Shown here: in pieces, positions 2,034 through 63,626 of the stretch
Layout of the letters: each line of letters begins with the position of its first letter
How positions within the stretch are numbered: the first letter of the stretch is position 1
DNA from: an uncultured Bacteroidales bacterium
GTDB taxonomy: Bacteria; Bacteroidota; Bacteroidia; Bacteroidales; WCHB1-69
Direction of reading: 5' to 3'
Assembly (NCBI GenBank): GCA_905235135.1
Contig: CAJOKR010000025.1
Span: 26,954-90,953, forward strand
DNA length: 64,000 bases
The notes under the pieces: generated by a model
The model's database searches: none
What the model was told of the DNA's origin: nothing
What the model saw: only the letters and a program-made list of their open reading frames with translations
Program-made: the position numbers and the translations under genes

Positions 2034-2060
2034 GTAGAGACGCAAAATTTTGCGTCTCGT
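2034..2060. repeat. 28-bp family palindrome, copy P1 (one end degenerate)
   Basis: Arm GTAGAGACG followed by core CAAAATTTTG and the reverse arm CGTCTC; the last bases of the right arm diverge. It lies just upstream of the TTG-started secreted gene and beside a 7-bp array. Confidence 0.8.
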
Positions 2061-2093
2061 AAGTCTCAAGTCTTAAGTCTTAAGTCTAGAATT
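2061..2093. repeat. 7-bp array, AAGTCTY unit
   Basis: Four to five tandem heptads (AAGTCTC, AAGTCTT). The array runs into the stop codon of the minus-strand outer membrane protein gene, whose TAG lies inside a unit. Confidence 0.8.
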
Positions 2094-3528: not shown

Positions 3529-3534
3529 TAGTAT

Positions 3535-3719
3535 TTGGTTTAAGGTTTAAGGTTTAAGGTTTAAGGTTTAAGGTTTAAGGTTTAGGGTTTAAGATTTACA
3601 GACTTGTGACGTAAGACTAAAGACTTTGGGGTCTTACGTTAAGTCTTGATGATTTGTCAAGTGTTTCTTTTTATAATTTCAGGTTTCAAGTCTTACGTCT
3701 TGCGTCTCACGTCTTAAGT
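3535..3719. repeat. 7-bp arrays (TTTAAGG, then degenerate AAGTCTT)
   Basis: The spacer between two minus-strand genes starts with about eight copies of TTTAAGG and continues with degenerate AAGTCTT/ACGTCTT heptads up to the TAG of the next gene. No other gene is seen here. Confidence 0.85.
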
Positions 3720-5402
3720 CTATCGTCTGCCGCCGCCGTGGGAACCACCGCCGCTGGAATGTCCTCCACCGCTGGAGTGTCCGCCGCCGCTGTAGGAGGA
3801 ACGGCTGCTGCTCGAAGAAGAGCTGTAGCTGGAACGGCTGCTACTGCTGGACGGGCTGCTATAGCTGGAGCGGCTGCTGCTCGAAGGTCTGCTGCTCGAC
3901 GGGGAATTGTAGTTCGAACGATTGTTTGATGAAGAATTATTGTAGGATGGACGGCTGCTGGATGACGAGGGGTTGCTATAGTTGGAATTGCTGTTGCGGC
4001 TGTTCGAAGAACTGGAAGGGGTGTTGTAGTTTCTTGAAGAAGAGGGCGTTGTAGTTGCCGGACGGGTGGTTGTGGTCGTCGTCGGGCGGGTAGTCGTGGT
4101 TGTGGTCGTTCTGCCGGTAGTGGTGGTAGCAGGTCTCGTGGTGGTGGCTGGACGGGTGGTCACGCTGGAGGGGGTTACCACGGTGCGCGTCACTGTTCTT
4201 GACGATTGAGAGGTCGGACTGGTTGTGGTCGTGGTAGGTCTCGAAGTGCCAGTGGTGCTAGCATTGCCTGACGTGAACGTGCTGGCATCCGTACGAGCGT
4301 TGTTGTTGGTTGAAGCCTCTGATCTTGAGGAGGTTACCGTAGTTGTGGTCGGTCTGTTTGTAGAGGAGTTGCCAGTTGCCGGGGTGGTGCCGGAGTAACT
4401 ATGTTGTCCCTGAATATCAGTAGAATTCACATTGGTGGTTTTGCTGCCCATGTCGGTGCGGGAACCCGTAACGACGGGTTTGTTGGTGTTGCTGCCATTG
4501 TGGGCACTGCCAGTGCCGGTGGTACCTGCCGCGAGATTGTCATAGCGTTGGTTAAAGCTTTCAGGTGAGGAAGTCACGGAGTAGTAGTTGTTGGTCTCGC
4601 CATTGCCGTGAGCACCTGACGGTCCGTTAGGTCCATTGTTGTCGTCCGGACGGTCGCCGCGACCGCCGCCGTTTCCGCCATTGCCCACTGAAGGTCCGAT
4701 GTTGTTGCGGTGACCATAGTAGTAAGCATGGTTCGGGTCGTGGTGGTTGTGATAGTAGTCGATGGGCTCGCAGCCAGGATGATACGGATGGTGCGGGTGA
4801 TACCAGGGATCGTAGGCGTGGTAGTATGGGTCATACCAGCCCCAACCGTAACGGAAACCGTAGTCATACCAATAGGGGGAATAGTAGTAGGGACGGTAGT
4901 AGTAGCCAGGCCACCACCAGTTATAACCCAGGTAAATGCTCAAACCCCAGCTGGCTGGATAATAATCATACCAATACATATTGGTGAAGTAGGGATCGTA
5001 ATAGCCCCAACCGGCATATACATCGGTGTGGAACCGACGGAGGCGGGAACTGTAACAGTAGTCGTAATAGTCATCGGGGTCGTAACTGTAGCTGCCAGCG
5101 GCGACCGAAGCGTTCGTATCATCGACCACTTCCATATACGTAGTGATGACCGGCTCCGTGCTGCCCGGATAGTAGGTCAGTGTGCGGAGCAGGTTGCCGT
5201 TTTCGTCAGTCTCATAAATGATGGAATCGGGTTCCACGGTCGGGGTCGCGGTGGCAGTATTCGCGGAGACGGGGGCTGCCTTTTGCACGACTTTTTCGCC
5301 CGAAGACGTGTATATGTCATCGTAATAGGCAAAATTTGCTGTAGAACAGGCTGCTAATAAGCCAGTTACAACGCTTAAAACGATTAAAAATTGTTTCTTC
5401 AT
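3720..5402 (-). CDS. Tyr/Trp-rich and Ser/Thr-rich low-complexity lipoprotein
   Basis: 560 residues from the start chosen here. The ORF track extends 16 codons further, but ATG at 5402 has a strong ribosome site (AAGGAGG, 6 nt away) and begins a lipoprotein signal ending LLAACS. After a short acidic segment comes a region of about 110 residues dominated by Tyr, Trp, Pro and His (for example YNWWWPGYYYRPYYYSPYW), then an Asn/Gly linker, a Thr-rich stretch with TTRPATTT repeats, a Ser-rich stretch with repeated SSSRSSY, and a GGGHSSGGG tail. No catalytic domain is visible. It is probably an envelope-anchored surface or adhesive protein. The composition produces long false ORFs on the other strand. 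Confidence 0.75.
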   Translation of the reverse strand: MKKQFLIVLSVVTGLLAACSTANFAYYDDIYTSSGEKVVQKAAPVSANTATATPTVEPDSIIYETDENGNLLRTLTYYPGSTEPVITTYMEVVDDTNASVAAGSYSYDPDDYYDYCYSSRLRRFHTDVYAGWGYYDPYFTNMYWYDYYPASWGLSIYLGYNWWWPGYYYRPYYYSPYWYDYGFRYGWGWYDPYYHAYDPWYHPHHPYHPGCEPIDYYHNHHDPNHAYYYGHRNNIGPSVGNGGNGGGRGDRPDDNNGPNGPSGAHGNGETNNYYSVTSSPESFNQRYDNLAAGTTGTGSAHNGSNTNKPVVTGSRTDMGSKTTNVNSTDIQGQHSYSGTTPATGNSSTNRPTTTTVTSSRSEASTNNNARTDASTFTSGNASTTGTSRPTTTTTSPTSQSSRTVTRTVVTPSSVTTRPATTTRPATTTTGRTTTTTTTRPTTTTTTRPATTTPSSSRNYNTPSSSSNSRNSNSNYSNPSSSSSRPSYNNSSSNNRSNYNSPSSSRPSSSSRSSYSSPSSSSSRSSYSSSSSSSRSSYSGGGHSSGGGHSSGGGSHGGGRR

Positions 5403-11481: not shown

Positions 11482-11763
11482 GGGGGCAGGGTTAGAGGGT
11501 TAATCATCTATCGTTCGCGCGCTTGTTCGTCATTAACCTCACCCCCTTGCCCCTGTCCAAATGGCGAGGGGTGGTACCGACCTCCCCTAACAGTTTCTCA
11601 CATTGCAGTCGTTGGACTCCTCCCCCAGTTGTGGGAGGCCGGGAGGTGGTAATCAAGCCCACACACAAATGATGGATAGATACCAAAATCGCCCCTTTAC
11701 GCTATTCCTATATATGATAATATATATCTTATCACCTTCCGCCACCCCGGCACCCTGCCAAGC

Positions 11764-11872
11764 ACTTCCCATACCTTTCCCATACCTTTCCCATAGCTTT
11801 CCCATACCTTTCCCATAGCTTTCCCATACCTTTCCCATACCTTTCCCATAGCTTTCCCATAGCTTTGCCATA
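11764..11872. repeat. 11-bp tandem array, TTTCCCATACC/TTTCCCATAGC
   Basis: About ten copies with the last two bases alternating CC or GC. It differs from the other arrays by its 11-bp period. Confidence 0.9.
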
Positions 11873-12167
11873 CTAAGGAGTATGGCATCACTATGGCATC
11901 ACTATGGCAACTGTATGCCATCCCTAACCCTCTAACCATGTAACCCCTAACCATGTAACCAACCCCACCCCTTTTCGTATAAGAAGATATACGGGAAATG
12001 GGGGAGGAACGGCGGAATTGACTGCCCTTCGCGACTGTTGATACCCTGTTGAAAAGTTTTAATAACTGAGACGATGCAGATAAGAAGCTGTATATAAGTA
12101 AGTTAGGGAAAATTTCAAAAAAATCGAAAAAAAACATTGCGAAAAGACAAACAATGGAAAAAAAATG

Positions 12168-22687: not shown

Positions 22688-22812
22688 AGATAGTGATTAG
22701 TGATCAGTGAACTGTGATTAGTGAATAGTGATTAGTAATCAGTTATTAAATTCTGGTATCAAGCAATAGTCTTAAGTCTCTAGTCTAAAGTCCCAAGTCT
22801 TAAGTCTAAAAT
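22688..22812. repeat. 7-bp arrays TAGTGAT and AAGTCTT
   Basis: First about eight heptads of TAGTGAT/CAGTGAA type (22688-22745), then about six AAGTCTY/AAGTCCC heptads (22768-22812), ending 5 bp before the ABC exporter's start codon. Confidence 0.85.
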
Positions 22813-22816
22813 CCCA

Positions 22817-22894
22817 ATGAGTTTTCTTCCGAAATTTCTTCGACAATATGCTGGGCGTTTGGCGCTGGTGTTCCTGCTGAACGTGCTGAGTTAA
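22817..22894 (+). pseudogene. N-terminal fragment of the ABC exporter (frameshifted)
   Basis: ATG at 22817 gives MSFLPKFLRQYAGRLALVFLLNVLS then TAA. This is the expected first transmembrane region of the exporter downstream. The downstream frame read upstream of its ATG gives TIFTFLMIEPF, so a one-base deletion or two-base insertion at about 22890 separates the two parts. Confidence 0.75.
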
Positions 22895-22911: not shown

Positions 22912-24600
22912 ATGATCGAGCCGTTCGTTAAGTTGTTGTTCAGGGGGACGTTGGAGGGGTTGAGTCCCGTGTCAGCCTACATGGTTTCCATTGTTTCTGC
23001 GGTGGTGCCGTTGGATAGTGCACGGGAATCCATTGCGGTGCTGATTGTGGCGGCTGCGGTGCTCTATTTCCTCCGCAATCTGGCAGCCTACGGATCGCAG
23101 TGGGTGATGGCGCACGTACGTAGCGACTTCCTCTACCAGTTGCGCAACCGCCTTTACGAGAAGATGATTTCGTTGCCGTTGGGCTATTTCACCATGGAGA
23201 GTCGTGGCGATACGGTGACTCGTGCGGTGAATGACACCCAGGAGGTGGAATATACCGTGCTGACCTCCATCCACAAGTTCCTGACGGATCCGATTGCGCT
23301 GGTCTGCTACTTGACCTTCCTCTTCTACATCGACTACCAGCTCTCCCTTTGGGCTGTACTGCTGATGCCCATCTCGTTCTTGATTATCGGGTTCTTGTCA
23401 CATCTGCTCAAACGTTCCTCCAAGACCTACCGCCAACGGCTTGGGGTGTTGCTCTCACATGTGGAGGAGACTCTTTCCGGTCTGCGGGTAATTTATGGCT
23501 TTAACGCACAGGAACGAGCCTATCGGAAGTTCGAGAAACTGAACAACGAGTTCCATGAGAATCAGAAAAAGGTTTATCGGCAGAGCTATCTCGCTAATCC
23601 TTTGAGTGAGTTCCTCGGGGTGGTCTCGGTGATGGTGGTATTGGTGATTGGAGGTTCCTTAGTGCTGTCAGAACGTTCCACGCTTTCGGCTGAGCTCTTC
23701 ATCACCTATATTGCGCTGTTCACCCAGATCATCACCCCGGTGTCGAATATCTCTTCCGCCTTTGCTGATTACAAACGAGGCGAGGCTGCCCTGGACCGCA
23801 TACAAGATTTTCTCGCCATTGGGGATCAGGTCGAGGATCGTCCGGATGCGATGCCTGTGCCGGGATTCCATCAGGAAATTGCGTTTCAGGATGTCTCGTT
23901 TGCATACGCGGACACGGACGTTCTGCACAATATCAATCTGACAATACCCAAAGGCAAGACGGTGGCGTTAGTAGGTTCTTCGGGTGCAGGCAAGACCACG
24001 CTCGCGGATCTACTAATGCGTTTTTACGATGTCACCAGTGGGCAATTGCTGTTGGATAACATCCCCGTGGACCATTACCGTGTTTCAGACTATCGCGGGT
24101 TGTTCGCGCTCGTTTCCCAGGATGTGATGCTCTTCCACGATACAATCTACCGGAACATCACGCTGGGTTGCGATGCCACGATGGAAGAGGTGATGGAGGC
24201 TGCCAAGGCTGCCAACATCTACGACTTCGTAATGTCCCTCCCCGATGGTTTCGACCACGTGGTCGGCGATCGAGGGGTAGCATTGTCGGGCGGACAGCGC
24301 CAGCGGGTGAGCATCGCCCGTGCCGTGTTGCGTAAAGCACCGATTCTGGTTTTGGACGAGGCCACTTCCGCGATGGACACCGAATCGGAACGGCTGGTGC
24401 AGCAATCGGTGGATGCTTTGTCGAAACAGCGCACGGTGGTGGTCATCGCCCACCGTCTATCCACCATCCGCCACGCCGACTGCATCTGCGTGTTGGACGC
24501 TGGCCAGATTGCGGAGGTGGGAACACATGAGGAACTGATGGCGATGAAGGGCGCGTATTACCAATTTGTAGAGACGCAAAATTTTGCATCTCTACCATAA
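22912..24600 (+). CDS. MsbA-like ABC exporter (transmembrane plus ATPase)
   Basis: 562 residues as called; homologues are about 600, and the missing part is the upstream fragment at 22817. Transmembrane helices span about 1-280. The ATPase domain has Walker A GSSGAGKTTL, signature LSGGQRQR, Walker B ILVLDEATSAMD and the switch IAHRLSTI. The family exports lipid A, lipids or peptides as a homodimer in the inner membrane. The last eleven residues (FVETQNFASLP) are encoded mostly by a 28-bp palindrome that sits directly before the stop codon, so the native C-terminus has been replaced. The ATG at 22912 is internal to the original protein. Confidence 0.85.
   Translation: MIEPFVKLLFRGTLEGLSPVSAYMVSIVSAVVPLDSARESIAVLIVAAAVLYFLRNLAAYGSQWVMAHVRSDFLYQLRNRLYEKMISLPLGYFTMESRGDTVTRAVNDTQEVEYTVLTSIHKFLTDPIALVCYLTFLFYIDYQLSLWAVLLMPISFLIIGFLSHLLKRSSKTYRQRLGVLLSHVEETLSGLRVIYGFNAQERAYRKFEKLNNEFHENQKKVYRQSYLANPLSEFLGVVSVMVVLVIGGSLVLSERSTLSAELFITYIALFTQIITPVSNISSAFADYKRGEAALDRIQDFLAIGDQVEDRPDAMPVPGFHQEIAFQDVSFAYADTDVLHNINLTIPKGKTVALVGSSGAGKTTLADLLMRFYDVTSGQLLLDNIPVDHYRVSDYRGLFALVSQDVMLFHDTIYRNITLGCDATMEEVMEAAKAANIYDFVMSLPDGFDHVVGDRGVALSGGQRQRVSIARAVLRKAPILVLDEATSAMDTESERLVQQSVDALSKQRTVVVIAHRLSTIRHADCICVLDAGQIAEVGTHEELMAMKGAYYQFVETQNFASLP
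24568..24595. repeat. 28-bp family palindrome, copy P2 (translated)
   Basis: Arms GTAGAGACG and ATCTCTAC around core CAAAATTTTG. It is read in frame at the end of the ABC exporter gene and is followed at once by CATAA, giving the stop. Confidence 0.9.
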
Positions 24601-24628: not shown

Positions 24629-25294
24629 ATGTCAAAACATAAATTAGAACGGTTCGCAGAAAACGCGACATTTGGGAATTTGTTCCAGCATACGGAGTAT
24701 GACAGGGTAGGGAAGGAGTTTCCCTTGCGGGGTCGTTGGAAGGAGGATTATTTCCACAATGACCGGCCCATCGTGCTGGAGTTAGGATGCGGCAAGGGGG
24801 AATACACCGTCGCGATGGCGAAGCGGTTTCCCGAACGCAATTACATTGGTATTGACCGGAAGGGAGCACGGCTTTGGCGTGGCTGTAAGGATGCGATTGA
24901 GCAGAAGTTGGCGAATGTGGCTTTCCTGCGCATCACCATCGACCACATCGGGCTCTATTTCGCGCCCGGCGAAGTGGATGAAATTTGGGTCACCTTTCCG
25001 GACCCGCAAATCAAGAAGGAGCGCAAGCGGTTAGTCGGTCCCCACTTCGTGAATGACTACTACCGGCAGATTTGGCCGGCAGACGGAGGCATCCTCCATC
25101 TCAAGTCCGACAGCGACTTCCTGTACGAGTACCTTCTCGAAACTGCCCAGGAACAGCATTGGCAGCTTCTCGAGAATATCCCCGACGTCTATGCTGGCAC
25201 CGCCGTCCCGCTTCTCACCGAAGTGCAGACGTTTTACGAGAAGATGTGGTTAGCGGAGGGGAAAACGATTCACTACGTGAGACTTAAGATTTGA
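24629..25294 (+). CDS. trmB: tRNA (guanine-N7-)-methyltransferase
   Basis: 221 residues, normal length. SAM motif I is VLELGCGKGEYTVAMA; the family segment VTFPDPQIKKERKRLVGPHF and the C-terminal TAVPLLTEVQTFYEKMWLAEGKTIHY are present. It methylates G46 of tRNAs. It starts 28 bp after the ABC exporter and its last codons (RLKI) merge into an AAGACTT heptad array, followed by a terminator. Confidence 0.95.
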   Translation: MSKHKLERFAENATFGNLFQHTEYDRVGKEFPLRGRWKEDYFHNDRPIVLELGCGKGEYTVAMAKRFPERNYIGIDRKGARLWRGCKDAIEQKLANVAFLRITIDHIGLYFAPGEVDEIWVTFPDPQIKKERKRLVGPHFVNDYYRQIWPADGGILHLKSDSDFLYEYLLETAQEQHWQLLENIPDVYAGTAVPLLTEVQTFYEKMWLAEGKTIHYVRLKI

Positions 25295-25327
25295 GACTTT
25301 GGACTTAAGACTTTGGACTTAAGACTT
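25283..25327. repeat. 7-bp array GACTTAA/GACTTTG
   Basis: About six heptads beginning in the last codons of trmB and running to the terminator. Confidence 0.8.
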
Positions 25328-25366
25328 AAAAAAGGCGCGGTTACCAAGTAGGTTTCCGCGCCTTTT
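25328..25366. terminator. Bidirectional terminator between trmB and gcvT
   Basis: Stem AAAAGGCGCGG/CCGCGCCTTTT with a 15-nt loop and T-run, shared by the convergent trmB and gcvT genes. Confidence 0.85.
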
Positions 25367-26648: not shown

Positions 26649-27021
26649 ATGAAAACTTATTCATTTGAAAACCTTGAAGTTTGAAAAAAATCCAGAGAAC
26701 TTGTACTATGTGTTTACCGCATTCAATCCTCTTTTCCTTCATTTGAAAAATATGGTTTGGGTAATCAGTTGAGGAGAGCTGTTGTTTCCGTGTTATCAAA
26801 TTTTGTTGAAGGAAATGCCCGCTATTCCATAAAAGAACAAATACATTTCATTGAGATTGCCCTCGGATCGTTGATGGAAGTCTATTGTCAGTTGACATTA
26901 GCTTCATGATTTAAACTACATCACTGAAGAGCAATTAAAACTCTGCAAAGAGAAAATAGGAGAAGTTTATAGGTTACTAAAAGGAATGCGGTACCAAAAG
27001 TTCAAACAGCTCCCTACCTAA
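26649..27021 (+). pseudogene. Four-helix-bundle protein of the 23S rRNA intervening-sequence (S23) family, degenerate
   Basis: Not in the ORF track. From ATG the reading is MKTYSFENLEV, then TGA, then KKSRELVLCVYRIQSSFPSFEKYGLGNQLRRAVVSV-type sequence, which is the family's signature (usually ...LEVWKKSRELV; here the Trp codon TGG has become TGA). A second lesion, a shift near 26907, is followed by DLNYITEEQLKLCKEKIGEVYRLLKG in another frame, ending at TAA 27021. The family is found inside 23S rRNA genes or free in the genome; its role is unknown. The gene is dead by two independent lesions. Confidence 0.8.
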
Positions 27022-27068
27022 TAGTCTTAAGTCTCAAGTCTCAAGTCTTAAGTCTCAAGTCTTAAGTC
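27022..27068. repeat. 7-bp array AAGTCTC/AAGTCTT
   Basis: About six heptads between the pseudogene's stop codon and the stop codon of the convergent kinase-like gene. Confidence 0.85.
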
Positions 27069-27701
27069 CTACTGCGGGTATTTCTTCAGCACATTCTCCG
27101 CCAGGAACTGCGCCACCTGGTCGGTAGTGAATCCTGAGACGTTGATGACAATGTCGTAATTGCGGGCATCGTAGCGGGATGTTTCGGCGAAAGCTTTCGT
27201 GTAGTTTTCGCGGGCCTTGTCGGTACGTTCCATAATCTCGCGGGCGCCTTTTTCGTCCACGCCCTGCTTCTCCATCAGACGTTTCACGCGGCATTCGGGG
27301 TTGGCGATGATGAGCAGGCGCATGGCGTTGGGGTCGTCCTTGAAAATATGGAAGCCGGTGCGCCCCACGATGATGCAGGATTCTTGTGCGGCGAGTTCTT
27401 TGAGGATTTTCGCTTCCTCATAGTAAATCTGTCTTGAATCGACCTCGAAGGATTCGAAGGCGATGGCGGCCGTGGTGCCGAACTGCTTGTAGAAGCGGCA
27501 GAAATCGGCCCACCAGCCCTGTTTCGTGGCTTTGACCTTTTCGAGTTCCTCTTCTGAAAGGTTGTATTTTTCGCGGATGGAGGCGAGGATTTCCTTGCCA
27601 TAGACTTTCACGCCGAGCAGCTCGCCCAGCTTTTCGGCGATTTCCTTACCGCCGGAGCCCGCCTCGCGGTTGATGGTGATGACGAATTTTTGATCTGCCA
27701 T
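27069..27701 (-). CDS. Cytidylate-kinase-like family protein
   Basis: 210 residues. P-loop-like N-terminus ITINREAGSGGKEIAEKLGELLG, then CIIVGRTGFHIFKDDPNAMRLLI and RVKRLMEKQGVDEKGAREIMERTDKAR, which form the lid-like region of the Cytidylate_kin2 family. Likely a cytosolic nucleoside monophosphate kinase-fold protein; its actual substrate is not established, and the main CMP kinase Cmk is a separate family. The stop codon borders a heptad array, and a TACTTTTG box lies upstream. Confidence 0.85.
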   Translation of the reverse strand: MADQKFVITINREAGSGGKEIAEKLGELLGVKVYGKEILASIREKYNLSEEELEKVKATKQGWWADFCRFYKQFGTTAAIAFESFEVDSRQIYYEEAKILKELAAQESCIIVGRTGFHIFKDDPNAMRLLIIANPECRVKRLMEKQGVDEKGAREIMERTDKARENYTKAFAETSRYDARNYDIVINVSGFTTDQVAQFLAENVLKKYPQ

Positions 27702-27758: not shown

Positions 27759-27786
27759 GTAGAGACGCAAAATTTTGTGTCTCTAC
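27759..27786. repeat. 28-bp family palindrome, copy P3
   Basis: Arm GTAGAGACG, core CAAAATTTTG, right arm TGTCTCTAC. Between the divergent promoters of the kinase-like and methyltransferase genes. Confidence 0.9.
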
Positions 27787-27834: not shown

Positions 27835-27849
27835 CCGCTCGAAATATAT

Positions 27850-27925
27850 AATGCCTTAAGTAGCCTCGAAGAGGCAAAACGCACGAAGTGCAATTAACCC
27901 CACACAAGCGAAGCGCAGTGTGGGG
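27850..27925 (+). repeat. Three-hairpin GAA-triloop element, copy E1
   Basis: Three consecutive hairpins: GCCTC-GAA-GAGGC, GCAC-GAA-GTGC, and a long stem CCCCACAC/GTGTGGGG capped by an inner GCGAAGC. A second copy (E2, 40151-40230, minus strand) has different bases in the first two stems but keeps the pairing. E1 lies in the probable 5' leader of the methyltransferase gene. Could be a structured RNA or a mobile palindromic repeat. Confidence 0.75.
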
Positions 27926-29950: not shown

Positions 29951-29978
29951 GTAGAGGTGCAAAATTTTGCGCCTCTAT
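29951..29978. repeat. 28-bp family palindrome, copy P5
   Basis: Arm GTAGAGGTG and right arm CGCCTCTAT around core CAAAATTTTG. Two arm bases differ from the main form; the GAGG/CCTC change is matched on the other arm, keeping the pairing. Lies 16 bp after ddh. Confidence 0.85.
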
Positions 29979-30775: not shown

Positions 30776-30803
30776 GTAGAGACGCACGGCCGTGCGTCTC
30801 TAC
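30776..30803. repeat. 28-bp family palindrome, copy P6
   Basis: Perfect palindrome: arms GTAGAGACG/CGTCTCTAC around core CACGGCCGTG. Seven bp from the 3' end of tRNA-Ser. Confidence 0.92.
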
Positions 30804-30952: not shown

Positions 30953-30980
30953 GTAGAGACGCACGGCCGTGTGTCTCTAC
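30953..30980. repeat. 28-bp family palindrome, copy P7
   Basis: Arms GTAGAGACG/TGTCTCTAC around core CACGGCCGTG, the same core as P6. P6 and P7 bracket tRNA-Ser and its promoter. Confidence 0.92.
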
Positions 30981-38296: not shown

Positions 38297-38312
38297 GTTC
38301 AATCAATAAAAC

Positions 38313-38344
38313 AAAAAAAGGCCGACGAACGTCGGCCTTTTTTT
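38313..38344. terminator. Bidirectional terminator
   Basis: Stem AAAGGCCGAC/GTCGGCCTTT with a GAAC loop and flanking A/T runs, shared by two convergent T9SS cargo genes. Confidence 0.93.
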
Positions 38345-38347
38345 GTT

Positions 38348-40039
38348 TTATTGATGTACAATCTTTCGGAGGATTTCGTGGCCGTTAGAGGTTTTGATGT
38401 GGAGGATGTAGGTGCCGGAGGGAAGGGAGCGGAAATCCAAATTGTTGATGTTGTCCCGTTGTAGGGGCGAATAATTATTCGCCCCTACGGCACGGCCTTG
38501 TATGTCATAAAGGGAGATGTTGACGATTCCCAAATCGCCGTTAATCTCCACCGTCACGAAATCCTTCGCGGGGTTTGGGTAAATAGAGATGGCATTTTCA
38601 TAGTCGTCAATTCCAACGTGCTGGGACAGTTGTACGTTTTGGATGACCTTCTGGCCGTCCGCCACATTGGCGACAATCGTTTTCGGGAGGTAGCCCTCGG
38701 CGGAATAGGTGACTGCATACTGACCACCCTTGATGGGACGGTGGTAGTCGCCGTGCGGCAGGGAGGTCTCCACGTAGGAATGGTCGAGGTCGTGGTCGGC
38801 GATATAGATAATCGCTTCAAGCGGCTCGCCCGTCAGCGAATCGGTGACTGTGCCGTGGATGCCATGGTTCGCCTCCCCGATAAAGTTCAGCAAAGCACGG
38901 TACGCAAAGCTCCAATAATACGGTAAGTAGTTGGTCGATAAAACTTTACTGTCGCAAACCTCAATGGTGACGTGGCGCGTGCCGAGATACCAGTTGTGGT
39001 AGTCCTGCATGGAGCCGGTAATGACATACCAGTCGCCACCCTCGGTGACACCGTTATCTTCCTCCGTCATGTAGGTGCTGTGGTAAGACTGGCAGGTGTC
39101 GGCATACCGGTGTCCTACATACTCCCACCAGGCAGCGTCGGCATGACTGTGTTGCCACGACATCCAAAAGTCCCACGGATAGTTGAAAACTTCCGCACCG
39201 CCGTGTAGGTTGGCCGCCAAAGTGAGGTTGTGTGCCTGCATGAACTGCATCATTGCCTGCACCTCGGGTTCGTCCTCGTTTTCTTTCGCGGGGTTCTGTC
39301 CTGCCCATGGGAACGAGCGATTCAGATCAATCCCGTGAAGGTTTTCCCGAATCGAAATTGGCGAGGAGTTGATTTGGTCGTCGGAGGTGTAATAGGTACC
39401 GTCGGGGTTGTGCAGCGGACAAATCCAAATGTCCACATTGTTGACTAACTCGGTGACGTATGCGTCTGTGTTGTAGTTGGTTAGCAGATAGTCGATAAGC
39501 CTCAGCATCATGTAGTAGCCCACCACCTCGTCGCCGTGGATGGTGGAGGAGTAGAAGATGGATGGCTTTCCCTCGCTACCGCTGAGGTCGTTGCTGATGT
39601 GGGCGCATAGGATTTTGCGTCCTCCCGGTGTCGCGGCCAAGATGGTGTCAATCTCGCAAAGCTGCGGGTAGCGCGTCCGGAAGGTGTCCATCATGGCGGT
39701 ATAGGTGCTGTAGGTCGGATAGCGCCTCCAGGAGGAGGTCATCTGCTCGTAGCTATTGGCCATCTGCACGTTGGCGCGGGTCTGCGGTACAGTCGTATAG
39801 GGGATGCCCTTTGCTAAGAAGTTGTCGAAATCCCTGTACGACAGACAGATGCGGGTGTTGAAGGTGTTGTCTGTGTTACGCTGCACACGGTCCACGGAGA
39901 ACTCCCGCGACAGCGACTGCAGCGTGGCAGCGTCTAAGACGGTCTCCACGTAGGTGCTGGGATAGGTCAGCGTGGTGTTTTGCGCTGACGCGGAGATGGT
40001 GAGGATGATGGCGATGATTAGGGTAATAGGTTTTTTCAT
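38348..40039 (-). CDS. Zinc carboxypeptidase (M14) with T9SS sorting domain
   Basis: 563 residues from ATG 40039; the ORF-track extension of 39 codons reads through a tandem repeat and is rejected. Signal peptide MKKPITLIIAIILTISASA, Gln at +1. M14 zinc motif STIHGDEVVGYYM, NPDGTYY, substrate-site RSFPWAGQNP, and NLHGGAEVFNYPWD; catalytic Glu in HVTIEVCDSK. A carboxypeptidase-regulatory-like sandwich (about 415-490) and a type A sorting domain follow (ISIYPNPAKDFVTV). Inside the sorting domain the residues VGANNYSPLQ are encoded by a 28-bp palindrome, in frame. Cleaves C-terminal residues of peptides outside the cell. Confidence 0.9.
   Translation of the reverse strand: MKKPITLIIAIILTISASAQNTTLTYPSTYVETVLDAATLQSLSREFSVDRVQRNTDNTFNTRICLSYRDFDNFLAKGIPYTTVPQTRANVQMANSYEQMTSSWRRYPTYSTYTAMMDTFRTRYPQLCEIDTILAATPGGRKILCAHISNDLSGSEGKPSIFYSSTIHGDEVVGYYMMLRLIDYLLTNYNTDAYVTELVNNVDIWICPLHNPDGTYYTSDDQINSSPISIRENLHGIDLNRSFPWAGQNPAKENEDEPEVQAMMQFMQAHNLTLAANLHGGAEVFNYPWDFWMSWQHSHADAAWWEYVGHRYADTCQSYHSTYMTEEDNGVTEGGDWYVITGSMQDYHNWYLGTRHVTIEVCDSKVLSTNYLPYYWSFAYRALLNFIGEANHGIHGTVTDSLTGEPLEAIIYIADHDLDHSYVETSLPHGDYHRPIKGGQYAVTYSAEGYLPKTIVANVADGQKVIQNVQLSQHVGIDDYENAISIYPNPAKDFVTVEINGDLGIVNISLYDIQGRAVGANNYSPLQRDNINNLDFRSLPSGTYILHIKTSNGHEILRKIVHQ
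38461..38488. repeat. 28-bp family palindrome, copy Q1 (translated in the M14 sorting domain)
   Basis: Arms GTAGGGGCG/CGCCCCTAC around core AATAATTATT. Read on the minus strand it codes VGANNYSPLQ in frame, between the DIQGR strand and the LDFRSLPSGTY strand of the sorting domain. Confidence 0.93.
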
Positions 40040-40054
40040 AGGTCTGTTTCTATT

Positions 40055-40163
40055 TTTCTGTAAACGCCCCACACTGCGGGTCTTTCTGTAAACGCCCCAC
40101 ACTGCGGGTCTTTCTGTAAACGCCCCACACTGCGGGTCTTTCTGTAAACGCCCCACACTGCGG
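40055..40163. repeat. 28-bp tandem repeat, 3.9 copies
   Basis: Unit TTTCTGTAAACG + CCCCACACTGCGGGTC, three full copies and a partial fourth. The CCCCACACTGCGG part matches one arm of the adjacent three-hairpin element E2, so the array looks like amplification of its end. It lies in the leader of the M14 gene. Confidence 0.92.
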
Positions 40164-40230
40164 CTTCGCCTTGTGTGGGGTTAATTGCGCTTCGCGCGTT
40201 TTGCCCCTCCGGGGCTGCTTAAGGAATTAT
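40151..40230 (-). repeat. Three-hairpin GAA-triloop element, copy E2
   Basis: On the minus strand: GCCCC-GGA-GGGGC, GCGC-GAA-GCGC, and CCCCACAC ... GTGTGGGG with inner GGC-GAA-GCC. The same order and linkers as E1 (AAAAC, AATTAA). It lies between the end of uvrC and the start of the M14 gene, in the same direction as both. Confidence 0.75.
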
Positions 40231-40240
40231 ATCTCATAAC

Positions 40241-42028: not shown

Positions 42029-42250
42029 GGGTTTAAGGTTTAAGGTTTAAGGTTTAAGGTTTAAGGTTTAAGGTTTAAGGTTTAAGGTTTAAGGTTTAAG
42101 GTTTAAGGTTTAAGGTTTAAGGTTTAGGTTTAAGGTTTAAGGTTTAAGGTTTAAGGTTTAAGGTTTAAGGTTTAAGGTTTAAGGTTTAAGGTTTAAGGTT
42201 TATGGTTTGAGGTTTCAAGTCTCAAGTCTTAAGTCTCAAGTCTCAAGTCT
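42029..42250. repeat. Long 7-bp array: about 26 TTTAAGG units, then AAGTCTY
   Basis: The largest heptad array in the window. It starts at the uvrC TTG codon, keeps the 7-bp phase with one shortened unit (about 42121-42127), and changes to AAGTCTC/AAGTCTT units from about 42214 until the stop of the next gene. Confidence 0.95.
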
Positions 42251-42256
42251 TAAGTC

Positions 42257-43789
42257 TCAATTATCTATTAATCTCGGGACGGGCATTACGAACAGGTCTT
42301 CGGGTTTGCGGGGACGGTAGGCATCTAACCAGCGGAATCCTTGGAGTTTGCGTTCGTTTTCCTTTATCTCTTCGTCGGGGTGAACCTGCCCGGAGGGGGC
42401 ATCGAAGTAGCGAATCTGCTGTATGTGGTTGCTGTCGAGGTAGATACGCATTTCACTCGTGATGGAGGTGTTGATGCCGATGAGCGAGCTGTCTTCCTCC
42501 TGGACGTAATAGACACACTCTGCATTTCCCACAATATCAACACGTTGGAGATTTCGATTTTCCAAATGTCCGATGATGTTCAGCCCTTTGATCTGGTTGA
42601 ATTCCGTGTCTTCGAAAAGCCCGCCGACGATGAACCCCGACCTGCAAAGTTCGATCGTGGAGTGTATCGAATCGAGCATTGTAAATCGGACAGTGTCGCC
42701 GGTAAGTTGGTAGTTATCGGACCAGAACACAGGATTGTAATACATTACCAGCATGGAGTCTTCTACGTTGTAAACCATTGAGTCACAAGCGCCTTGAAGA
42801 TCTTTATGTTGGAATTTGGTGTGGAAGAAAGCGCGGACTAATGTGGGGTTGGAGGCGGTGTCGAAATCGACGAACAGCGTGTCGCAATGGAGAAAAAGAG
42901 AGTCTTGGTTGTCATCAATATAGACGAGCATATTGCTGTCGGTGGCAATAGAAGTGCCGCCTTTCTCATGATGTTCGAGGTAATTTCCCGAGACGATGAG
43001 GTGGTTGGCCGTGTCCACGAAACGGGCGTTGCGCCAGGCACGGCCGAATTTCAGCTGCTGGTCGTAATAGACGCTGTCGGCGAAAAGTTGCTGTTTCTCG
43101 CCGAGAAGCTGCACGTTTCCGTAAAGGATGGAGATGTCGGATTCGGTTTTGTAGAGCCCGCGGTCGGTGAAGATGGTGTTTTCCTCGTTGACGAGGTGCG
43201 TGGGCGAGATGAAGTAGGCGATTTTGCTGCTGGCGTTGTAACGGAGGGAGTCGCAGTCCATAGTGTAGCTGGTGCTGCGCAGGAGCACCGAATCGTGGAG
43301 GTAGGCATCGTCGGTGTTGGTGTAGTATTTTCCGATGACGCTGGTCAGGGTGTCCGCATCGTTGAAGATTTGGCCGCCGGTGACGTAGTAGCCGCAGTCG
43401 ATGTTGAGGTCGTAGAAGAGGCTATCGGCGAGCAGGTACGACTTGCCGTTTTCGAGACGCACCTTGCCGGCGATGACAGCCTGCCGGATGTTGCCGTCGT
43501 AGGTGGCGCGGTAGCCGTTCAGGTGGATGGAGTCGCTAATGACGAAGCGGACGGGGTTGCCGTAAGCGATGATGTAGTTGTCCGCCTCATAAAGGTAGGC
43601 ACTGTCGCAGTAGCCCACCACGTTGTCCTGTTTGAATTTGACATTGCCGATGAGCCGCTGAGCACCGGGGTAAGCGTCCTCGTCGTAGTAGCCCATGTCC
43701 GCCCGATAGAGAATCTTGCGGTTGCTCTGTCCGTGTATCGCGCTGATACACAGAATGCTGAGTAACAGTATGGCGGACAGTCGCTTCAT
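42257..43789 (-). CDS. OstA/LptA-like envelope protein
   Basis: 510 residues. Signal peptide with Gln at +1 (ISAIHG/QSNR). The N-terminal half is an OstA-type beta-jellyroll with repeated strands (GNVKFKQDNVVGYCDSAYLYEADNYIIAYGNPVRF; GYRATYDGNIRQAVIAGKVRLENGKSYLLADSLFYD), as in LptA and the N-terminal domain of LptD. Probably part of periplasmic LPS transport. It overlaps in transcription with the YwqK-type lipoprotein gene 3 bp upstream. Confidence 0.85.
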   Translation of the reverse strand: MKRLSAILLLSILCISAIHGQSNRKILYRADMGYYDEDAYPGAQRLIGNVKFKQDNVVGYCDSAYLYEADNYIIAYGNPVRFVISDSIHLNGYRATYDGNIRQAVIAGKVRLENGKSYLLADSLFYDLNIDCGYYVTGGQIFNDADTLTSVIGKYYTNTDDAYLHDSVLLRSTSYTMDCDSLRYNASSKIAYFISPTHLVNEENTIFTDRGLYKTESDISILYGNVQLLGEKQQLFADSVYYDQQLKFGRAWRNARFVDTANHLIVSGNYLEHHEKGGTSIATDSNMLVYIDDNQDSLFLHCDTLFVDFDTASNPTLVRAFFHTKFQHKDLQGACDSMVYNVEDSMLVMYYNPVFWSDNYQLTGDTVRFTMLDSIHSTIELCRSGFIVGGLFEDTEFNQIKGLNIIGHLENRNLQRVDIVGNAECVYYVQEEDSSLIGINTSITSEMRIYLDSNHIQQIRYFDAPSGQVHPDEEIKENERKLQGFRWLDAYRPRKPEDLFVMPVPRLIDN

Positions 43790-44559: not shown

Positions 44560-45564
44560 ATGAAAAAAGTATTGACAATCAGCATCTTATTGATGATATG
44601 TGGGATGATGACCCTCACCGCCCAAATCCAGCACTTCACCTGGCAGGGTACGGAGCGTGAATATCTCATCCGTGTGCCCTCGCAGCATACGAGTCCTCTG
44701 CCTGTGCTCTTCTTCCTGCACGGGTTAGGCGACAATATCACGAACTATGACCAGACGTTCAACTTCGGGCAGATAGCCGAGGAGTTCGGGTGGGCGATTG
44801 TGGCGCCGCAAGCTCTCAACCAGGGCATAGGCGCCATGTGGAACGCCGGACTGATGCCCAGCTCCATCGATGACGCCGGCTTCCTGATGGCCCTCCTCGA
44901 CTCGCTGACCATCCAGTATCAGCTCGATCCCGACAGCGTCTTCTTCTCGGGCTTTTCGATGGGCGGCTTCATGACGCATCGCATGGCCATCATGCACGGC
45001 GATCGTATTACCGCGTGCGTTCCTTTCAGCGGACTGATCACCACTGCGGATGCCGCACAAACGCCCGTCGCGCCCGTCCGGATGCTCCACGTCCACGGCA
45101 CGAATGACAACGTGGTGGGTTACAACGGATATTCCACCGCGTTTGGCATGAATCTCGGCCTTGGGGTGGATGCTATCATGGACTACTGGCAGAATGCGAA
45201 CAGCTGCACTGGTGAGCCCGCCATTGACACGCTCCCCGACCTCAAGAATGACGGGCTGCGTTTTATCCGCTACACCTACAACTGCGGCACCGACCTGCAG
45301 CTGCTGAAAGTGGTTGGCGGCACCCATAACTGGTATGATGTCGCGCACAATGATGTTGGCTACAAGGAGATTCTCTACGAGTTCTGCTCCGGTCACAGCC
45401 TTCCGTCAGGCGTGCCCGCACGTGAGACGGGGTATCTGCAGGTCTGGCCGAACCCCACAAACGGCGTCCTCAACATCCAGATGCCCAATTCCGATTCACC
45501 GGCTAAAGACATTCAGGTTTTCGATGTGTATGGAAAATTGGTGGATCGTGGTAGGGGCGAATGA
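44560..45564 (+). CDS. T9SS esterase (polyhydroxybutyrate depolymerase/LpqC-like), sorting domain interrupted
   Basis: 334 residues as it stands. Signal peptide ends MTLTA with Gln at +1. Alpha/beta hydrolase motifs: LFFLHGLGDNITNY (oxyanion region), FSGFSMGGFMTHRMA (nucleophile Ser), HVHGTNDNVVGYNG (Asp) and GGTHNWYD (His). A type A sorting domain begins LQVWPNPTNGVLNIQ but is cut short after GKLVDRGRGE by a stop codon formed inside a 28-bp palindrome. Deleting exactly those 28 bp restores a normal sorting-domain end (ETTKIDMSRFPDGVYFVQ, to the stop at 45673). The protein as encoded probably cannot be exported or anchored by the T9SS. Substrate: an ester, perhaps a plant-wall or polyester type. 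Confidence 0.85.
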   Translation: MKKVLTISILLMICGMMTLTAQIQHFTWQGTEREYLIRVPSQHTSPLPVLFFLHGLGDNITNYDQTFNFGQIAEEFGWAIVAPQALNQGIGAMWNAGLMPSSIDDAGFLMALLDSLTIQYQLDPDSVFFSGFSMGGFMTHRMAIMHGDRITACVPFSGLITTADAAQTPVAPVRMLHVHGTNDNVVGYNGYSTAFGMNLGLGVDAIMDYWQNANSCTGEPAIDTLPDLKNDGLRFIRYTYNCGTDLQLLKVVGGTHNWYDVAHNDVGYKEILYEFCSGHSLPSGVPARETGYLQVWPNPTNGVLNIQMPNSDSPAKDIQVFDVYGKLVDRGRGE

Positions 45565-45578
45565 TTATTCGCCCCTAC
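45551..45578. repeat. 28-bp family palindrome, copy Q2 (inside the esterase gene)
   Basis: Arms GTAGGGGCG/CGCCCCTAC around core AATGATTATT. It splits the esterase's sorting domain and supplies an in-frame TGA. Flanking codons rejoin perfectly on removal. Confidence 0.95.
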
Positions 45579-56340: not shown

Positions 56341-57372
56341 ATGGTTAACCTTTTTTTACATATTCAAATGATCAACAAGCAATTACAAGCGTTTCACACC
56401 ATAAGTCTTAAGTCTTACGTCTCAAGTCTCAAGTCTAAGGTTTCACGTCTGTTCTTATTCATCACGCTGTTTCTCGCCAGCGCAGGCGCATTTGCGCAAG
56501 AGAAAGAGACCTATCTGTACGCAGAAAAGGACACGAGCAAGCTGTATTTGGATGTGTACGTGCCGAAGATACAGAACGAGCAGCAGTCGTGCCTGATGTT
56601 CGTGTTTGGGGGCGGTTTCATCGGCGGGAAGCGCGACGACAACCAGATACAGCAGGTTTGGCGTCACTTCACCGATAAGGGCTATGTGGTCATCGCCATT
56701 GACTACAGACTTGGGATGCGCGGAAAGACGGAGTTTGCGGCGCTGAAAGCCCTTAAGAACTTCCAGAAATCCATCGACATGGCGGCAGAAGACGTGATTT
56801 CGGCGCTGGACTACATCATCCGGAATCTTCGTCATACGGACAAATACACCATCGACTGCGCCCACATTGTGGTGATGGGCAGCAGTGCGGGGGCCATCGC
56901 GGCGCTGCAGGCCGATTATGCAATGTGCAACGGCTACTTAAACAGCGACAATCTCCCCCAGAGTTTCCGGATTGCCGGGGTGGCTGCCTACGCCGGCGCT
57001 ATCTTCTCCACCCACGGAGTGCCCAAGTACAAGAACCGCGCACCGGCACCCACGCTTTTCTGTCACGGCACCGACGATAAGCTGGTGAACTACAACAAGA
57101 CCCAGTTCGCCAACATCGGGTTCTTCGGGTCAAAATCCCTTGCGAAACAGTTCAAGAAGAAAGGTTACACCTACCAAATTCGCCGTTACACGGGCCTCGG
57201 GCATCAGGTGGCGGCTTTCTACAACGATGAGTTCGACGTCATTGAGGATTTCATCACGAAAATAGCGTTCACCGACAGCGGTGTCCAGCTTGACGAGACC
57301 CGCTACGACCCGCGCATCGAGCCGAAGTGGAACAACTTCAGGGTGCGGGATCTCAAAAAATTCGCGCAGTAA
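56341..57372 (+). CDS. Secreted alpha/beta hydrolase (carboxylesterase-like)
   Basis: 343 residues. The signal peptide (LFLFITLFLASAGAFA, Gln at +1) follows an unusually long N-terminal region in which LKSYVSSLKSKVS is encoded by an AAGTCTY heptad array. Core motifs: LMFVFGGGFIGGKRDD (oxyanion-type HGGG variant), VVIAIDYRLG, VVMGSSAGAIAALQ (nucleophile Ser), CHGTDDKLVNYNK (Asp) and GLGHQVAAF (His). Probably an esterase of the feruloyl/acetyl type. The true start may be later than 56341, but no downstream Met precedes the signal helix except at about 56368. Confidence 0.82.
   Translation: MVNLFLHIQMINKQLQAFHTISLKSYVSSLKSKVSRLFLFITLFLASAGAFAQEKETYLYAEKDTSKLYLDVYVPKIQNEQQSCLMFVFGGGFIGGKRDDNQIQQVWRHFTDKGYVVIAIDYRLGMRGKTEFAALKALKNFQKSIDMAAEDVISALDYIIRNLRHTDKYTIDCAHIVVMGSSAGAIAALQADYAMCNGYLNSDNLPQSFRIAGVAAYAGAIFSTHGVPKYKNRAPAPTLFCHGTDDKLVNYNKTQFANIGFFGSKSLAKQFKKKGYTYQIRRYTGLGHQVAAFYNDEFDVIEDFITKIAFTDSGVQLDETRYDPRIEPKWNNFRVRDLKKFAQ
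56399..56448. repeat. 7-bp array AAGTCTY inside a coding region
   Basis: About six heptads (AAGTCTT, ACGTCTC, AAGTCTC, AAGTCTA) translated as part of the hydrolase N-terminus. Confidence 0.75.
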
Positions 57373-62073: not shown

Positions 62074-62116
62074 GCAGAGACGTTGCGCGCAACGTCTCTA
62101 CCGTACGACGTCTCTA
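62074..62116. repeat. 28-bp family palindrome, copy P9, plus a half-site
   Basis: Arms GCAGAGACG/CGTCTCTAC around core TTGCGCGCAA, followed by a lone right half (GACGTCTCTAC) whose CTA supplies the minus-strand stop of the sorting-domain remnant below. Confidence 0.88.
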
Positions 62117-63598: not shown

Positions 63599-63626
63599 GT
63601 AGAGACGTTGCGCGCAACGTCTCTAC
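63599..63626. repeat. 28-bp family palindrome, copy P10 (at a sorting-domain loop)
   Basis: Perfect arms GTAGAGACG/CGTCTCTAC around core TTGCGCGCAA. Read on the minus strand it encodes VETLRATSLQ in frame with the sorting-domain remnant that follows, at the same loop as copies Q1 and Q2. Confidence 0.92.

Follow-up and report, generated by a model that had tools for sequence, protein, structure and literature searches.

The closest described counterparts of the palindrome analyzed here are REPs. First, the GTAG-tagged REPs (Di Nocera et al. 2013, PMC3733652) are short palindromes in high copy with a GTAG terminus, units of which lie within ORFs or form dimers, and all of these traits recur in the family described below. 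In the available text of that source, the GTAG termini frequently supply the TAG stop of flanking ORFs. The same text places GTAG repeats in Proteobacteria, Cyanobacteria, Chloroflexi, and PVC and lists Bacteroidetes with CGTC repeats only, and it leaves the GTAG tag unpaired at one end, whereas here GTAG pairs with CTAC at the other end. Core exchange at orthologous coding sites is not described in that portion of the paper.

Second, the "double-foot" REPs of TnpA-REP subclass 2.4 (Quentin et al. 2018, PMC6006769) share with the present palindromes a 5' GT[AG]G foot and a 3' C[TC]AC foot. According to the available text, they occur in Cyanobacteria and Bacteroidetes and include insertions that keep the reading frame, as here; however, those REPs flank or sit inside tnpA-REP genes, and the palindromes here do not. 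Rickettsia palindromic elements (RPE), as cited in the available part of PMC3733652, likewise are in-frame palindromes in many proteins, but constant arms with interchangeable cores are not described for them there. The available text of PMC8266576 treats the spread of REP-like palindromes as an unresolved question.

The present locus lies in a window of 64,000 nucleotides, meaning the whole stretch of DNA analyzed, from an uncultured Bacteroidales bacterium (genome G000 below). It encodes an esterase, a T9SS-type alpha/beta hydrolase, whose frameshifted reading frame ends in ...VYGKLVDRGRGE and a stop (Table 1). The Por_Secre_tail profile (PF18962) matches the orthologue from genome G014 at 296-364 (E 3.7e-11), and its match in the window esterase covers profile positions 1-34 of 75 only. 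The 28-bp palindrome at this gene end has the letters GTAGGGGCGAATGATTATTCGCCCCTAC, with both 9-bp arms exact and one mismatched pair in the core, and its arm GTAGGGGCG occurs four times in the window versus 0.34 expected. In the esterase model, whose overall pLDDT is only 70, the palindrome-coded residues 333-342 span a turn of the sorting domain between strands 328-333 and 341-347. The original prediction, made from the letters of the window, described this palindrome and held that its deletion reopens the gene, and both statements held up: a script that joined the flanks without the palindrome produced VDRETTKIDMSRFPDGVYFVQ...VVVSR.

The palindrome is one copy of a genus-wide dispersed family that exceeds chance by far. 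Its 28-bp layout comprises fixed 9-bp arms, GTAGRGRCG and CGYCYCTAC, around a variable 10-bp palindromic core, and the pattern GTAGRGRCG-N10-CGYCYCTAC has 202 copies in the G000 genome, whereas the reversed control has none. In 710,331 bases sampled from G000, with at most one mismatch allowed per arm, 84 copies were counted, compared with none for reversed arms and a single one across two shuffles; the spacing between arms was exactly 10 in these 84 copies, 9 in 2, and 11 in 6. Cores are self-complementary at 4.5 of 5 pairs on average (1.25 expected), and 60 core types were found among the 207 distinct copies in all fetched sequence. In the G000 sample, the flanks favor TT on the 5' side and AA on the 3' side. 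No target-site duplication of the MITE kind was seen, with few clean empty sites for comparison. The length of 28 bp falls within the 20 to 40 bp of GTAG REPs, and the high copy number and GTAG terminus agree with that group too; the unpaired tag at one end was not found. Also, four pairs of palindromes in the G000 sample stand 45-49 bp apart from start to start (e.g., C10:27818/27867 and C10:45186/45234), an arrangement like that of REP dimers.

The pattern was found in 44 of 60 relatives, namely, all 36 genus members and 8 of 24 others, and in 96 of 392 genomes sampled across the phylum versus 2 of 392 for the control. All 13 loci of relatives retrieved from the named collection came from uncultured Bacteroidales/Bacteroidetes, and the sources, where stated, are rumen, reticulum, or omasum; G000 is likewise taken to be a rumen genome. 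Exact arms with the core TTGCATGCAA are present on three cyanobacterial plasmids, including plasmids of Anabaena and Planktothrix. This recalls the small dispersed repeats of cyanobacteria, reportedly characterized by Elhai et al. in 2008 as tiny mobile repeats. On the Planktothrix agardhii plasmid, the annotation at the palindrome with this core is that of a type I polyketide synthase gene.

Table 1. Esterase locus and palindrome copies in the window (positions counted from the first letter of the window)
Feature	Positions	Strand	Basis
Esterase, T9SS-type alpha/beta hydrolase, C-terminus frameshifted	44560..45564	+	ORF and sorting-domain profile match
28-bp palindrome, type A core AATGATTATT, arms GTAGGGGCG/CGCCCCTAC, in esterase sorting-domain loop	45551..45578	.	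Sequence and orthologues
Net 2-nt loss versus in-frame orthologues (GATCGTG versus GATGTTATT in G012)	45541..45550	+	Alignment
In-window control: same palindrome type, intact, in frame (VGANNYSPLQ), in sorting domain of 602-aa T9SS protein (38348-40156)	38461..38488	-	
Core TTGCGCGCAA, coded VETLRATSLQ, sorting-domain fragment	63599..63626	-	
CAAAATTTTG type, 3' end of ABC transporter gene, frame 0, end VETQNFASLP and stop; absent at G014 orthologous place	24568..24595	+	
Core GAGCACGCTC; G014 orthologous site has TTTCATGAAA	34198..34225	.	
Palindrome copy, CAAAATTTTG type	27759..27786	.	
Palindrome copy, diverged	29951..29978	.	
Palindrome copy, CACGGCCGTG	30776..30803	.	
CACGGCCGTG type, 177 bp from the 30776 copy; absent at G014 orthologous place	30953..30980	.	
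CAAAATTTTG, decayed 3' end	2034..2061	.	
TTGCGCGCAA, second base decayed; G010 orthologous place has core CGCCATGGCG	62074..62101	.	

Comparison with other species changes how the esterase is to be read. Among 27 esterase loci examined at the palindrome site, the window included, 19 (again with the window) have a palindrome or a decayed remnant at exactly this place. The type A palindrome, with arms GTAGGGGCG, is found in G000, G012, G006, G014, G010, and G025 and is decayed in G013; the ATGTGCACAT type is found in G026, G028, G007, G031, and G002 and is decayed in G021 and G035; the TGCCATGGCG type is found in G018, G017, and G019; and G015 and G027 have two GC-rich cores. These types were assigned partly by eye, and four loci only show the strict pattern, the others having one to several changes. 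Seven more distant orthologues (G016, G005, G001, G011, G022, G037, and G024) have no palindrome at the site, and the esterase end is disrupted in G009. The window copy alone is out of frame, and the other 18 congeneric species read through, which overturns the prediction that the palindrome breaks the esterase.

As judged from the alignment, the frame of the window esterase is broken by a net 2-nt loss, real or an assembly error, just 5' of the palindrome: relative to G012, the nearest type, two nucleotides fewer stand ahead of GTAG. Removal of 28 bp reopens the frame because 28+2=30, and the repair, which had been taken as direct evidence of insertion, is therefore no evidence for a recent one. 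Also, the GKLV-to-IDMS link has 6 residues in the window minus 28 bp versus 15-16 in palindrome-bearing orthologues and 11 in the palindrome-free G016, so that the window without its palindrome does not represent the ancestral state, and a search for alleles lacking the 28 bp at this site found none among close relatives. What remains of the predicted insertion is a palindrome of foreign origin, since it belongs to a dispersed repeat family, with no target duplication evident, but one that has long occupied the sorting-domain loop in frame and does not interrupt the gene.

The loss itself calls for caution. A sequencing or assembly error in an intact gene is a substantial possibility, although we lean against it; the assembly is fragmented, with 118 contigs at 88% completeness, and all 18 other palindrome-bearing orthologues are open. 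Nevertheless, the disrupted end in G009 indicates that loss of the esterase tail does occur.

The esterase is one of several genes with a palindrome at a fixed place. A profile search of the G000 sample for sorting domains gave 20 rows, reduced to 18 after the removal of one duplicate and one match with E=12, and 6 of these 18 domains contain a palindrome in the same loop. These 6 of the 84 copies fall in 0.46% of the sequence, versus 0.39 expected (P about 3e-6). Further in-frame sorting-domain palindromes occur at G000:C18:25181 and G015:C43:56410. Five of the six copies in G000 sorting domains are of the TTGCGCGCAA or AATAATTATT type, versus 1 of the 78 other copies; this use of few cores also fits a spread of the sorting domains by duplication.

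In lpxB, one codon site is filled in 7 of 23 aligned orthologues, all in frame and with three intact core types, and is empty in the other 16, including that of G012 (95% protein identity). Empty and filled genes differ by 30 to 36 nt or more (30 nt in two cases), and no clean 28-bp empty site came to light. In the LpxB model, pLDDT is <50 at residues 251-259, inside the palindrome-coded stretch. For GH97, 26 loci were fetched and 22 scanned, and 21 gene copies were recognized by motif; 15 copies from 12 species are filled, with 8 core types, while 6 are without a palindrome, which in filled copies stands directly ahead of the GH97_C domain. The palindrome-coded peptide is V-E-T-x(3-4)-S-L-Q. 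These coding sites show that a loop encoded by a mobile element is tolerated in LpxB, a conserved enzyme, as well as in a secretion signal domain.

Other copies mark the ends of genes. In 15 of the 84 copies in the G000 sample, an upstream coding-like ORF stops at the TAG of GTAG. Three of 17 DXS orthologues have the palindrome at the conserved stop and an unaltered protein end. It also stands at the stop of an alcohol dehydrogenase (ADH) in 2 of 12, and at the ADH gene end, the dimers of G000 and G013 differ in both cores and spacers. A 24-bp unit inserted after a native GTAG was considered because it would explain the in-frame and stop-codon copies, and a native GTAG does occur (TTGTAG in G015; ATGTAG in DXS of G003 and ADH of G010 and G006). 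It was set aside because the lpxB empty sites are devoid of GTAG and the filled ones are 30-36 nt longer on balance. The palindrome-free DXS end of G003 reads ATGTAGAAACTAC, in which GTAG and CTAC feet are 3 nt apart, a possible remnant or precursor.

From species to species, a given codon site can hold unlike cores between arms and flanks that remain aligned. In the 61 of 91 GH97 pairs with different cores, the core differs by 57%, the arms by 3%, and the flanks by 18%. Core and flanks are therefore unlinked at this gene: flank divergence is equal whether the two copies share a core (17.6%, 30 pairs) or not (18.4%, 61 pairs; P=0.30), and even in the closest pair of all, G010/G020 (5.6%), the two cores are unlike. 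The neighboring T9SS paralogues at C10:18570 and C10:24092 differ in their cores, and their flanks are nearly identical. A tree of the esterase catalytic part requires 10 label changes for 5 labels (minimum 4), a count that shifts somewhat with the entry of G002, G027, and G009 as "none," and sister species such as G013/G026 have unlike palindrome types. In a wider comparison of fetched stretches, counted as directed pairs and not deduplicated, the core was the same in 28, different in 21, and absent in 22. Against exchange, palindrome type was kept between G014 and G010 at 6 of 8 compared sites, and one core is common to all three filled species at the DXS stop. Hybrid cores are represented by a single clear case, TTTCATGGCG in G017.

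Some sites mirror the resident repertoire of their genome. Exact copies of the core ATGTGCACAT number 22 in G003 and 4 in three other genomes, with none in 36 of 40, and G003 is the only genome with this core in lpxB. Similarly, TTGCGCGCAA peaks in G013 (29 copies), which has it at both GH97 copies and at one ADH stop. The exact ATGTGCACAT core is now rare or absent in genomes with ATGTGCACAT-type esterase sites, so resident core abundance does not explain every site.

Taken with the esterase data, we consider it probable that the window palindrome is an old in-frame copy of a genus-wide GTAG-type family resembling double-foot REPs, that the 2-nt loss is a separate event, and that cores are exchanged locally. 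Different palindromes might instead have been inserted repeatedly at the same preferred targets, with loss in between and no exchange of cores in place. We regard this as unlikely, although some target preference is likely in view of the copies at exact gene ends, 15 of 84 of which supply the TAG stop, and of the enrichment in sorting-domain loops, and one ADH stop carries unlike dimers, with unlike spacers, in G000 and G013. Against this reading, each re-insertion would need base-exact placement. GH97 flanks are ungapped on both sides in all filled copies except for one case of +6 nt, and the lpxB genes of G003 and G014-like species share derived flank bases that are absent from empty sites, while their cores differ.

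Slightly less credible still is longer-tract homologous recombination between species that carried palindromes along. The right flank of G000 lpxB, AAAACGGCAA, resembles G014 and not the closest relative, G012, and the esterase C-termini of G013 and G026 diverge past the palindrome, as this account would have it. Nevertheless, GH97 core identity and flank similarity are unlinked, and the C10 paralogues, which share one genome, differ sharply near the site at the core only. Because one genome per species was compared, recurrent loss and re-insertion at one and the same spot or interspecies allele transfer could give part of the pattern.

Under local core exchange, which we prefer, a core would change by swapping a short tract with another copy elsewhere in its own genome. 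Possible routes include gene conversion and template switching, with either the 9-bp arms or the hairpin as the guide; arms of 9 bp are short for RecA-type conversion. Alternatively, a TnpA-REP-like nuclease might cut and rejoin at both GTAG feet. In-frame copies would be retained because the nucleotides gained on balance are divisible by 3 (30 nt in two lpxB cases) and because V-E-T-x(3-4)-S-L-Q forms a tolerated flexible loop. The comparisons do show that copies persist for long periods at their places, in frame in loops of secreted or cytoplasmic proteins or as a stop codon.

The tnpA-REP-like genes of the genus may act in trans on the palindromes. A palindrome lies within the fetched flanks of 1 of 14 Y1_Tnp loci and of 3 of 19 in a second set, and inside 0 of 19 ORFs. 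The tnpA-REP-like genes examined in the genus are surrounded by other, different repeats; for instance, a REP_Tyr_transpos-like gene on G000:C20, below the cut-off, has its own repeats. On G054:C44, a palindrome does lie near a Y1_Tnp gene. A RAYT as mobilizer by proximity is not supported, given the few adjoining palindromes and the other repeats around these genes. Because linkage to tnpA-REP genes was sought and not found, we do not file the palindrome as a member of the double-foot REPs. Copy number correlates with Y1_Tnp number across 36 congeners (Spearman 0.67), which is uninformative because genome size gives 0.72.

The tnpA-REP-like genes have repeats of another kind. In L168 (G000:C20:83064), L169, L172, L173, L174, L176, and L177, one end or each end bears repeated peptides (GGAAFLPQN..., DASSV..., and HLRDADGS...), which are distinct per group, and those of L168 and L172 are encoded by the genes' own palindromic repeats. 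At L165 (G054:C44), two copies of GTAGAGACGTGGCATGCCGCGTCT enclose an IS200-like gene region that has long inverted arms.

A stronger version of exchange posits fixed coding sockets at which a dedicated nuclease, acting at the GTAG/CTAC feet, swaps 10-bp cores from a genome-wide repertoire and so diversifies loops in frame. We find this improbable; if true, loops of sorting domains, LpxB, and other enzymes would be rewritten in frame, a form of palindrome-cassette diversification. Finally, the original prediction, taken as a 28-bp insertion of recent date that left no target duplication, broke the esterase, and might serve as a switch through excision, is very hard to sustain, for although frame arithmetic and the dispersed family of the element speak in its favor, the palindrome or its remnant is in frame at the same site in 18 other species, the adjacent 2-nt difference accounts for the frameshift, removal leaves a link shorter than in any compared orthologue, and no excision was seen.

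At coding sites such as those of GH97 and lpxB, place, frame, and arms are fixed and only the core varies; such sites allow insertion to be told apart from exchange and core exchange to be tested in two related strains. A search of mainly open-access literature for the arms, for T9SS together with palindromes, and for REP conversion found no report of core exchange at orthologous coding sites; the listed papers with literal matches to the arms appear by their titles to concern other subjects. In-place core exchange at such sites, together with enrichment in T9SS sorting domains, thus appears to be new relative to the literature searched.

The window is rich in other repeats too. Tandem heptamer arrays of the GGTTTAA and AAGTCTC/AAGTCTT types occur at 3530-3720, 22765-22819, 25266-25341, 27006-27076, 42030-42262, and 56385-56470, with about 25 units in 42030-42210, and another tandem array, at 11744-11883, has the 11-nt unit TTCCCATACCT. 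Tandem copies with a 28-nt period lie beside a 63-nt repeat that has an inverted copy 12 kb away (40055-40163, 40170-40232, and 27846-27908), and they extend into the 5' end of the ORF at 38348-40156. Between convergent genes, 38302-38355 forms a perfect 26-bp inverted repeat with a 2-nt loop, which is terminator-like.
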